Origin: a virus
Length of the DNA stretch: 43,453 nucleotides
IMG/VR virus record: IMGVR_UViG_3300005356_000009
Location: 1 to 43,453 of that record
Reading direction: 5' to 3' (one strand)
The position numbers and the translations under genes were made by a program. This document shows, piece after piece, positions 39,478 through 42,650 of the stretch. Within the stretch, counting starts at the first letter, position 1. Every line of letters starts with the position of its first letter. The notes beneath the pieces were generated by a model. The model was not told the DNA's origin and ran no database searches. It worked only from the letters and a program-made list of their open reading frames with translations.

Positions 39478-40198
39478 CAATCCCCCAAAGGTACGGGGTG
39501 CCAATTTCAGTCCAAGACATGCCGCTGCGCTCTGCCGCTGACTTTACGCCAATCTCAGCCGGCAGTCCACGCCGGCATTACTTGTCCCTATTGATCCAAT
39601 GGACTATATTCACCTCGTCAGCGCCGCAGGGGGCTGAAGCACCTGAACAACCCAAGAGCGATCGCAGGCCCCACGGGCCGCTTGAGCCAGCAGGCTCGCA
39701 CCGTGTGACTGCCGCGATCGTCGCCTGACTCGGCCGGCGCTGCGCTCGAACGTGCAGCCCCGGAGGAAGCGAGCAGGTCCCTACGTGGATGCAGAACGAC
39801 GAGACCCTTCATGCCAGACCCAACCCGGACGCAGCGGAAAACGCACGGCTCGCGAGACCAGCGAGCAGGATGCCGAAGTACGCCAGGCGGTCCCGAAGCG
39901 ATCTGGATGCGGGGGAATCTCAGAGGGGCGTGTGATCGTCCACAGAGTCGCTGCCAGCCGAAACGCTGGGGCGGCACCTCACACCCAACCTCGTGAACGT
40001 CGGACACTCCGAAGCTCGGTCTACTCATTGTGTGGAGCACCAGTAAGGCGTATCGGTGCGGCTCTGCCGCCTGCATCCACCGCTACAGATGACCGTCCCG
40101 CCGGTAAGGGCCGACGCTCGCGAACATCGCTCGATCAGCACGCCTGGTCGGTCGATGCTCGCGATCATGCGAGACAACCTGAGAGGAGCCATCCTGAC
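39478..40198. other. 0.7-kb intergenic region between divergent operons
   Basis: No convincing gene is seen. Long frames on both strands here have Arg/Ser-rich, shadow-like products and only about 70% G/C at third positions. Structures include GCCGGC-N7-GCCGGC (39558-39576), two adjacent hairpins GGCCC-CAC-GGGCC (39667-39679) and GAGCC-AGCA-GGCTC (39684-39697), and CTCGC-N6-GCGAG (40158-40173). A GGGGAATCTCAGA motif near 39910 recurs before the gene at 42050. It may hold the late-operon promoter, an untranslated leader or ncRNA, and possibly the packaging site. Confidence 0.45.
39582..39610 (+). promoter_or_regulatory. candidate sigma70-type promoter pointing right
   Basis: TTGTCC (39582-39587), a 17-bp spacer and TATATT (39605-39610) form the best -35/-10 pair noticed. 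It points toward the right-hand operon, but the first gene starts only at 40199, so transcription from it would give a leader of about 580 nt. Confidence 0.5.
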
Positions 40199-40450: not shown

Positions 40451-40665
40451 TGATCAACGGTGCCGACCGCAGGCAGGTCCTCGTGGCTCGCGAGATGCTG
40501 GCCGCCGTCTGCCATCGCACGGTCCAGGGCAGCCCGGAGCACCAGGCGCTGCTCGATGTCCTCGCGTCGATCAACGACGCGCTCTACCTGGGCGTCCGCC
40601 GCCCGGCGCCTCCAATCGAACCGGCCGACCCATTCACCACCTGGCTCAAGGAGCACTCAGCATGA
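40450..40665 (+). CDS. small hypothetical protein
   Basis: This 71-residue protein starts at ATG 40450 in a TGATG overlap. It is mostly helical (RRQVLVAREMLAAVCHRTVQGS ... LLDVLASINDALYLG) with a Pro-rich end. The last codons overlap the next gene. The function is unknown. Confidence 0.6.
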   Translation: MINGADRRQVLVAREMLAAVCHRTVQGSPEHQALLDVLASINDALYLGVRRPAPPIEPADPFTTWLKEHSA

Positions 40666-40886
40666 AGCGCACGATCCTCACCCTGGTCACCGCCCGCCGT
40701 CCGGGTGGCCCCGGCTTCTCTCATCAGGAGCACCTGACCGTCGACGGCAACCTGCGCCAGACCGCGTGCGGCCTGGAAGTGCGCTCGCCGATCAACCACC
40801 TGGCGCCAGCCTTCACCCTGGCGACCTGCAAGCACTGCCGCCGCATCGCCGGGCGGCTCGGCTTCAACGCAGAGAGGCCCGGCTAA
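40662..40886 (+). CDS. small zinc-binding protein
   Basis: ATG 40662 overlaps the preceding stop, and the product is 74 residues. Cysteines in TACGLEV and CKHC, with nearby His, form a likely zinc site. The end, FNAERPG, matches the end of the protein from the next gene (FNAE). The TAA stop lies in the loop of an RNA hairpin (element at 40878-40924). Confidence 0.65.
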   Translation: MKRTILTLVTARRPGGPGFSHQEHLTVDGNLRQTACGLEVRSPINHLAPAFTLATCKHCRRIAGRLGFNAERPG

Positions 40887-40924
40887 GCCGGGTGTAATGC
40901 GGCCGCCCGGTCTCAAGCCCGGGC
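40878..40924 (+). ncRNA. structured intergenic RNA element, family A copy 1
   Basis: Stem 1 is CCCGGC/GCCGGG (40878-40883/40887-40892) and its 3-nt loop is the stop codon of the upstream gene. TGTAATGCGGC follows, then stem 2, GCCCGG/CCGGGC (40905-40910/40919-40924), with loop TCTCAAGC. AATCTCACCGCAGGAGC then leads to the next start. Copy 2 at 41290-41335 has different stem bases but keeps both pairings and the loop motifs. Confidence 0.6.
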
Positions 40925-40949
40925 AATCTCACCGCAGGAGCATCCTGAC

Positions 40950-41288
40950 ATGACCCTCCCTACCCTCGCCCAGATCAATGAGAAGCTCGGCGGCCGCGTC
41001 CGCTCCTGGGGCAAATACAACCTGCTGGAGTCCTTCGCCGTCGGCTCGCAGAGCCAGCGGTACGGGACCTCGCCGAAGACGCACATCCTGCGCCTGGAGG
41101 TGGTGACCGAGGACCGCGAGCCGAAGCGCGGCACCTACAAGCTCGGCGACACCCTGTCGGCCCACGCCCTGTGCATGACCAACGGGCAGCACACGGGCCG
41201 GGCCTACCCCGGCGTCGACACGGACAGCATCACCTGCTCGAAGTGCCTCGCCAGGATCAACGGATGGACTGCCTTCAACGCAGAGTGA
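40950..41288 (+). CDS. zinc-binding hypothetical protein
   Basis: ATG 40950 is preceded by CAGGAGCATCCTGAC. The product is 112 residues, with a beta-rich N-terminal domain (THILRLEVVTEDREPKRGTYKLGD). A C-terminal zinc-ribbon-like part follows (HALCMTNG ... ITCSKC). The end, NGWTAFNAE, parallels that of the upstream 74-residue protein, suggesting duplicated modules. The function is unknown. Confidence 0.65.
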   Translation: MTLPTLAQINEKLGGRVRSWGKYNLLESFAVGSQSQRYGTSPKTHILRLEVVTEDREPKRGTYKLGDTLSAHALCMTNGQHTGRAYPGVDTDSITCSKCLARINGWTAFNAE

Positions 41289-41289
41289 A

Positions 41290-41335
41290 CCCGCCACCAG
41301 GCGGGGTAATGCGGCACGCCGGTCACAAGCCCGGC
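41290..41335 (+). ncRNA. structured intergenic RNA element, family A copy 2
   Basis: Stem 1 is CCCGCC/GGCGGG (41290-41295/41300-41305). GTAATGCGGC follows, then stem 2, GCCGG/CCGGC (41318-41322/41331-41335), with loop TCACAAGC. AATCTCACCGCAGAGGAGC follows. Compared with copy 1, stem 1 changes by compensating base pairs while TAATGCGGC and TC(T/A)CAAGC stay constant. Confidence 0.6.
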
Positions 41336-41363
41336 CAATCTCACCGCAGAGGAGCCACCTGAC

Positions 41364-41738
41364 ATGGCCTACGACATTCTTCCCTACGTCAACCTTGACG
41401 CGATCGATGATCGCGAGGTCCGCAATCTGGTCGCCGAGTACGCCCAGTACGCCGACCACGGCACAGTCCGCCAGCCTGGCAAATTCGAGGCGGAGCCGCT
41501 CTACGTCGTCTTCTACTGGGGCCTCATGCTCCAGGGTGACGGCGAGACGTCCTACCTGCCGTGCGAGGAGCACGAGGATGGGGACTGCGAGTGCGACCCG
41601 GAGGTCGACTACGACCAGTTCGACATCCAGGCCGGCGATGCCGAGGCGTTCCCGGAACTCGAGCCGTCGATCGGCAAGTACCTGCGGATCCGCGAGGACT
41701 CGCAGGGGTACGTCACCGCCTGGATCGCGGCCTCATGA
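41364..41738 (+). CDS. acidic hypothetical protein
   Basis: ATG 41364 follows AGAGGAGCCACCTGAC. The 124-residue product is acidic, with a Cys/Asp/Glu stretch (PCEEHEDGDCECDPEVDYDQFD). The N-terminal half is mixed (NLVAEYAQYADHGTV ... LYVVFYWGLMLQGDG). It could bind metal or mimic nucleic acid, but no family is recognised. Confidence 0.65.
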   Translation: MAYDILPYVNLDAIDDREVRNLVAEYAQYADHGTVRQPGKFEAEPLYVVFYWGLMLQGDGETSYLPCEEHEDGDCECDPEVDYDQFDIQAGDAEAFPELEPSIGKYLRIREDSQGYVTAWIAAS

Positions 41739-41971
41739 GCCGCAAGCCTCGGGTGGACCCGCTGGTCCCGACGCACCAGATCGACCGCCGCCTGGCGATC
41801 ACCCACGTCAGCACCCCGGACAACGCGGTCATCGACATGATCGAGACCGCGATGGGCCGCCAGCAGGACCCGCGCTGGACCACCAAGATCAGGCGGCAGA
41901 CCATCGCGTACGCCCTCTGGCGGCATCACCAGAACCAGGCGGACTACGCCTGGGTGATGGGCGGCCACTAG
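41735..41971 (+). CDS. small basic hypothetical protein
   Basis: ATG 41735 overlaps the previous stop (ATGA). The 78-residue product is basic and helical (TTKIRRQTIAYALWRHHQNQADYAWVMGGH) and may bind nucleic acid. The TAG stop lies in the outer stem of the following RNA element. Confidence 0.6.
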   Translation: MSRKPRVDPLVPTHQIDRRLAITHVSTPDNAVIDMIETAMGRQQDPRWTTKIRRQTIAYALWRHHQNQADYAWVMGGH

Positions 41972-42019
41972 CCCCGACATCTGCTGCTCGCCCTGGTGGG
42001 CAGCGGACGCCCCGGCTAG
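41968..42019 (+). ncRNA. structured intergenic RNA element, family B copy 1
   Basis: The outer stem CTAGCC (41968-41973)/GGCTAG (42014-42019) contains the upstream stop codon. The inner hairpin includes GCCC-TGGT-GGGC. The flanking internal-loop bases GACAT and GGACGCC are shared with copy 2 at 42568. GGGAATCTCAGAACAGGAGC then leads to the next start. Confidence 0.55.
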
Positions 42020-42049
42020 GGGAATCTCAGAACAGGAGCATGCCTGACC

Positions 42050-42571
42050 ATGCCATCGTCAACCGACCTCACCGTCGCCGCCCTCACCGGCTGGGACTCG
42101 TTCGAGGACCTGCTCAACACCAAGGGCGACTACCGCCCGACCATCCGCCCCCAGGCGAACGACCGCCGCTACGAGATCCTCGCCGATGCCTACGACCTCG
42201 CCCAGCGCGAGCGGGGTGATGAGCGCCGGGCCTACCGTGGCGGCGGCGCTGCGCGCCTCTTCGAGCAGGTCCTCGTGGTCCGCCTCCAGGGCGTGCCGAA
42301 GGGCAGCGGCCAGTACTCCGAGTGGCTGAAGGTGATCCACGCGATCAACGCCCGCTGCCGCAGCATGGGCCGCGATCTGGCCTTCAGCACACCGGTCGCC
42401 TGCTACGAGCAGTCCAACCGACGCTGGTTCGAGGAGTACCCCGAGTTTCGGGTGGTCCTCAACACGGACCCGTTCAACCCGGACGAGTCCGTCCGCATCG
42501 TCGCCTTCACGGACCGCGCGAGCCAGTGGCTCACCGACGCGGTCCTCGAAGTCACCGGCCACGCCATCTAG
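42050..42571 (+). CDS. hypothetical protein
   Basis: ATG 42050 follows AGGAGCATGCCTGACC. The 173-residue product is mixed, with a helical centre (RRYEILADAYDLAQRERGDERRAYRGG) and a C-terminal alpha/beta part (FRVVLNTDPFNPDESVRIVAFTDRASQWLTDAV). No known domain is recognised. Its stop lies in the outer stem of the next RNA element. Confidence 0.65.
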   Translation: MPSSTDLTVAALTGWDSFEDLLNTKGDYRPTIRPQANDRRYEILADAYDLAQRERGDERRAYRGGGAARLFEQVLVVRLQGVPKGSGQYSEWLKVIHAINARCRSMGRDLAFSTPVACYEQSNRRWFEEYPEFRVVLNTDPFNPDESVRIVAFTDRASQWLTDAVLEVTGHAI

Positions 42572-42618
42572 CTTGGACATCCGGCCCCGAGTGTCGCGGG
42601 GCCGGACGCCTGCGCTAG
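42568..42618 (+). ncRNA. structured intergenic RNA element, family B copy 2
   Basis: Outer stem CTAGC (42568-42572)/GCTAG (42614-42618). Inner perfect 10-bp stem TCCGGCCCCG/CGGGGCCGGA (42580-42589/42597-42606) with loop AGTGTCG. Internal-loop bases GACAT and GGACGCC match copy 1, while the inner stem sequence is entirely different. Confidence 0.6.
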
Positions 42619-42650
42619 CAGGACACATCAACCCGGAGGCCCATCCTGAC

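Follow-up and report, generated by a model that had tools for sequence, protein, structure and literature searches.

Two elements at gene junctions of the window, the 43,453-nt stretch of an IMG/VR virus record analysed here in full, are almost certainly type-P5 twister self-cleaving ribozymes whose cleavage is predicted by homology, and they probably split a polycistronic phage transcript. An Rfam scan of the window returned exactly two matches above the gathering score, both to the type-P5 twister ribozyme RF02684 (cut-off 37.6 bits). Copy 1 occupies positions 40868-40922 (+; 48.6 bits, E 3.2e-7) and copy 2 positions 41279-41334 (+; 56.3 bits, E 3.4e-9), with E-values computed for the whole window. 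The alignment spans model positions 1-58 in order and at full length, and the permutation is that of type P5, with a loop-closed P1, the outer strand of P2 first and P4 last. None of 14 control genomes scanned for RF02684 gave a match, which together with E-values near 3e-9 and 3e-7 excludes chance similarity; membership of the class is as firm as sequence allows. The copies share with RF02684 the sequence core, P1, P2 and P4, the T1 pseudoknot, the permutation and a score above gathering. The motif itself is no different here, and the arrayed, stop-docked placement in phages is a matter of context. Weak matches to PreQ1-III and mir-1842 in the window (E 3-5) were taken as chance.

Part of this architecture had been recognized in the original prediction, which described two stems and a constant linker at both junctions. 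Its first stem is P1, with strands 40877-40883/40887-40893 in copy 1 (40877-40893, +) and 41290-41295/41300-41305 in copy 2 (41290-41305, +). The pairings it reported, CCCGGC/GCCGGG (40878-40883/40887-40892) and CCCGCC/GGCGGG (41290-41295/41300-41305), are both seen in the sequence and differ by a compensated change, G-C in one copy and C-G in the other. The linker TAATGCGGC is found at 40895 and 41307 and holds the cleavage site and the inner strand of P2. The second stem is P4, and its loop TC(T/A)CAAGC is followed by AATCTCACCGCAG in both copies. The P2 helix (CGCA/UGCG), T1, the U-A cleavage site and the name of the family had been missed. In the Rfam consensus structure, the outer P2 strand CGCA lies at 40868-40871 (+; partner UGCG, 40898-40901) in copy 1 and at 41279-41282 (+; partner UGCG, 41310-41313) in copy 2. 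The elements thus begin about 10 nt earlier than proposed, at 40868 and 41279, because CGCAGAG, earlier taken for the terminal part of the upstream gene, belongs to the ribozyme core (outer strand of P2 and L1/T1).

T1, which links L1 and L4, covaries between the two window copies: AGG (40875-40877, +) pairs with UCU (40911-40913) in copy 1, and UGA (41286-41288, +) with UCA (41323-41325) in copy 2. The T/A difference in the P4 loop is thereby compensated by the variable position of CGCAGAG(A/T)G. The putative T2 strands GGC/GCC are also present; they are invariant in our alignment A1, where covariation is uninformative for them. Both elements are built into stop codons. In copy 1, the UAA that forms the P1 loop (40884-40886) terminates the open reading frame (ORF) at 40662-40886, and the T1 strand UGA of copy 2 is, with the same three bases, the stop codon of the ORF at 40950-41288. 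Twister ribozymes cleave at a U-A step (PMC6154101), and the cuts are therefore predicted between 40895 and 40896 and between 41307 and 41308 (both +), 9 nt and 19 nt 3' of the respective stop codons.

A second CGCA lies 3' of each copy (40933-40936 and 41345-41348, both +), and the one behind copy 1 could form a new pairing with AAUGCGG, the 5' end that cleavage would create. Such a CGCA before the ribosome-binding site accompanies 47 of the 94 phage copies, where about 11 would be expected, but only 3 of the 14 copies of a bacterial-genome hold-out. A general rule of refolding after cleavage was rejected, and we regard the second CGCA as a feature of some phages only.

Relatives were collected by an exact search for the core pattern, which gave 60 viral-contig and 12 bacterial-genome stretches, and by a covariance model (R1) built from A1, which found 111 copies in 62 loci. 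The conserved core, UAAUNCNGC and CAAGCCC, is invariant across relatives and carried by both window copies, as are all other invariant columns of A1. Among the 102 distinct copies, 94.4% of cells are paired, compared with 70% in shuffles, and two-sided changes occur in all 14 pairs. Covariation scores 0.509, compared with 0.119 for shuffles and no more than 0.11 for slid structures, in an alignment fitted to the structure and with shuffle controls that overstate independence because copies within a clade are related. P1, P2 and P4 are each backed by covariation, and P2 is 98% paired across the distinct relatives. Two independent counts agree: P1 has at least 5 bp in all 66 distinct copies (17% of shuffles), and T1, which lies outside the model, has standard pairs at 188 of 198 positions, compared with at most 175 in 1000 shuffles. 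The covariance-model and Rfam searches that the original prediction had named as its check were thus positive (RF02684; 111 copies), and its view of the elements as a selected RNA structure is borne out by covariation and homologues. Among the roles it offered, that of a processing site appears to be the right one, given the homology to a self-cleaving ribozyme.

Eight loci (L011, L020, L021, L030, L040, L043, L050 and L056), again in phage contigs, carry (C)GCAGAG after P4 and not before it, a different, type P1-like permutation. BLAST matches of the core to Pseudomonas phages covered only 24 nt inside annotated genes of the opposite strand and were taken as chance.

The ribozymes form arrays and are docked on stop codons. 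Same-strand copies over the cut-off number seven in each of the L044 and L035 records, six in the L009 record, six within 5.5 kb in L003, five in each of the L026 and L037 records and four in Tunturi_4. Of 95 copies, 84 have a nearby stop codon, with an ORF of 45 codons or more ending between -60 and +40 relative to the first base of the element, and 89 are followed within 150 nt by a Shine-Dalgarno sequence and start. Both signals accompany 79 of the 95, compared with 16% of random positions, and the start codon with its ribosome-binding site typically follows about 29 nt after the element. The register of the stop is sharp, with 57 of 95 at -5 to -1 or exactly at +7, the latter class being the UGA within CGCAGAGUGA. 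In the cultured phage Tunturi_4 (PP885687), each of the four copies falls into a gap that separates co-directional genes of the depositors' annotation, 0, 0, 4 and 25 nt 3' of the upstream gene. As expected of a ribozyme-processed phage operon (PMC3088659), multiple ribozymes are thus found on the same strand, between genes that run in one direction. A point against transcript splitting is that some gene junctions of these operons have no twister. Docking is less regular in bacterial genomes (5 of 14 copies); since several Desulfosporosinus and Clostridia-type copies are undocked, it is common and not universal. In three Desulfosporosinus loci (L078, L080 and L082), TTTTTGAG precedes the twisters in place of a stop codon, in a context unlike the phage operons.

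In the window, the genes on either side of each copy are co-directional, and the stop codon of the upstream one is overlapped or adjoined by the ribozyme. The gene upstream of copy 1 (40662-40886, +) encodes 74 aa with a CxxC C-terminus and has no Pfam or PHROGs match. It is followed by genes for 112 aa between the ribozymes (40950-41288, +) and for 124 aa downstream of copy 2 (41364-41738, +). The small proteins of the operon gave no match in Pfam and, in PHROGs, one PHROG of unknown function. Between a minus-strand ORF that ends the left gene block and this operon, no gene is evident over about 700 nt (39505-40198), which contain several hairpin-like stretches and, at 39913, GGGAATCTCAG, a sequence found again at 42020. 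The terminase is closest to those of Thermobifida phage P1312 (41%) and Streptomyces phage Dagobah (42%), a likeness that suggests an actinobacterial host. The DNA of the operon resembles that of named phages only in the ribozyme itself and in 58 nt of a portal gene. Loci L012 and L041 come from the same phage as the window. Positions 4178-4249 of L041 bridge the window end (43453) to its start (1) with about 70 extra bases, and the genome is therefore circular or circularly permuted.

The function of the ribozymes is probably transcript splitting. By homology, each would cut itself between U and A just after the stop codon. The upstream message would keep its stop codon and end in the GC-rich P1 hairpin with a 2',3'-cyclic phosphate, and the downstream message would begin with a 5'-OH and have P4 near this new end and a free ribosome-binding site on its leader. 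From the predicted cuts to the ATGs at 40950 and 41364, these leaders measure 54 and 56 nt. A long phage transcript would in this way be divided into mRNAs of gene length whose ends are protected, allowing neighbouring genes to differ in mRNA level and lifetime. The docking on stop codons further suggests that P2 and T1 are covered for a short time by the ribosome as it terminates, and that cutting would then follow translation.

The two elements might resemble each other through descent alone. They lie in a block running from CTTCAACGCAGAG to CCTGACATG (95 nt, 81% identical, E 3e-21), and the duplication noted in the original prediction is real, although the CGCAGAG within it is more than a gene end. 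The similarity extends to the proteins: the C-terminus of the gene between the ribozymes (TCSKC...FNAE) resembles that of the preceding gene, the last 18 aa of the two upstream proteins are 56% identical, and their common TCxxC...FNAE ending is partly encoded by the ribozymes. What speaks against a recent duplication without RNA function is that the copies differ by compensated changes and that unrelated phages and bacterial genomes have the same structure with different stems; this explanation is left with a negligible probability. Probably the block of gene end and ribozyme was copied, and the stems and T1 then diverged by compensation. It is likewise highly improbable that the structure does not cleave and acts as a protein-binding site, a transcript stabilizer or a degenerate ribozyme. 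Self-cleavage at the U-A step is a prediction from homology, but every position invariant among relatives is kept in both window copies, and compensation preserves P1, T1 and P4.

Other explanations accept cleavage and assign it a different purpose. The ends that twisters leave (5'-OH and 2',3'-cyclic phosphate) are suited to ligation, and tandem same-strand copies with a constant P2 would permit the half-ribozymes at the 5' and 3' ends of a released gene RNA to re-form a twister, closing the RNA into a circle by the reverse reaction or through a host RtcB-type ligase. Such circularization is very unlikely: where neighbours are of different T1 type, cross-pairing yields only 0-1 of the 3 T1 pairs at 5 of 13 junctions, whereas self-pairing always yields at least 2 of 3. 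This neighbour-pairing test led us to reject it as the main selected function. T1 pairs within a copy even where neighbours differ, which indicates that each ribozyme is selected singly, as a cis-acting unit. A regulatory switch, in which translation, ions or a ligand would tune cleavage and so set expression of the downstream gene, is unlikely but deserves more weight. In its favour, stop codons coincide with P2/T1 or with the loop of P1, and in L003 and L026 one P1 each is replaced by an extended, aptamer-like hairpin in which AAGAAA(U/C)G is conserved. Most P1 loops, however, are short and unrelated in sequence, which argues against a general ligand domain. The longer hairpins of L003 (2681-2750, +) and L026 (7175-7244, -) have a covarying inner stem, CUAG/CUAG versus CCAG/CUGG, and may represent the fusion of an aptamer domain with the ribozyme.

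A second structured RNA, family B, occupies the same kind of gene junction as the twisters and has no Rfam match. Two copies lie in the window (41966-42023 and 42566-42622, +) and four in L064 (693-749, 1157-1218, 1884-1945 and 2513-2568, -), so that the family comes from two phages only. Its layout comprises a strand bearing a UAG stop, GACAUC, a long covarying hairpin, GACGCC and a hairpin of CCCC/GGGG type, and the loop of this 3' hairpin pairs with the UAG-bearing strand in a pseudoknot. The covariation score is 0.516 against 0.206, from only six sequences and with a structure chosen by eye. Family B is a candidate structured RNA and possibly a ribozyme. The combined idea that the stop-built twisters are translation-gated scissors, masked at P2/T1 by the terminating ribosome and cutting upon its release, and that family B does the same job at neighbouring junctions, is doubtful.

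Ribozymes in phage transcripts have precedents. For clustered prophage hammerheads, the accessible part of the published account reports tandem copies that cut polycistronic RNAs of about 2 kb in vitro and already proposes transcript processing (Perreault 2011, PMC3088659). As in our operons, several self-cleaving ribozymes per phage transcript flank single genes there; the ribozyme class is different, and that part of the account contains no precise stop-codon register. Theta (HDV-like) ribozymes of gut phages (PMC10879173) are also self-cleaving and located in phage genomes, but have a different fold and are linked to tRNA-based recoding; twister is absent from the main text of that study. 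Hammerhead and twister have both been reported to be enriched near Mu-like phage genes and other ribozymes, and why ribozymes cluster near phage genes is described as unknown (PMC10085705), as is the biological role of natural twister ribozymes (PMC10226581). The ribozyme class and the general idea of processing are thus known already; the stop-docked arrays and a cultured test phage are added here. Arrays of 4-7 type-P5 copies, mostly docked on stop codons and with a ribosome-binding site downstream, indicate a single role, the cutting of polycistronic phage mRNA between genes, and Tunturi_4, a cultured phage with four copies, makes this proposed role directly testable. The stop-codon register also hints that cleavage by the ribozymes may be connected with the termination of translation.
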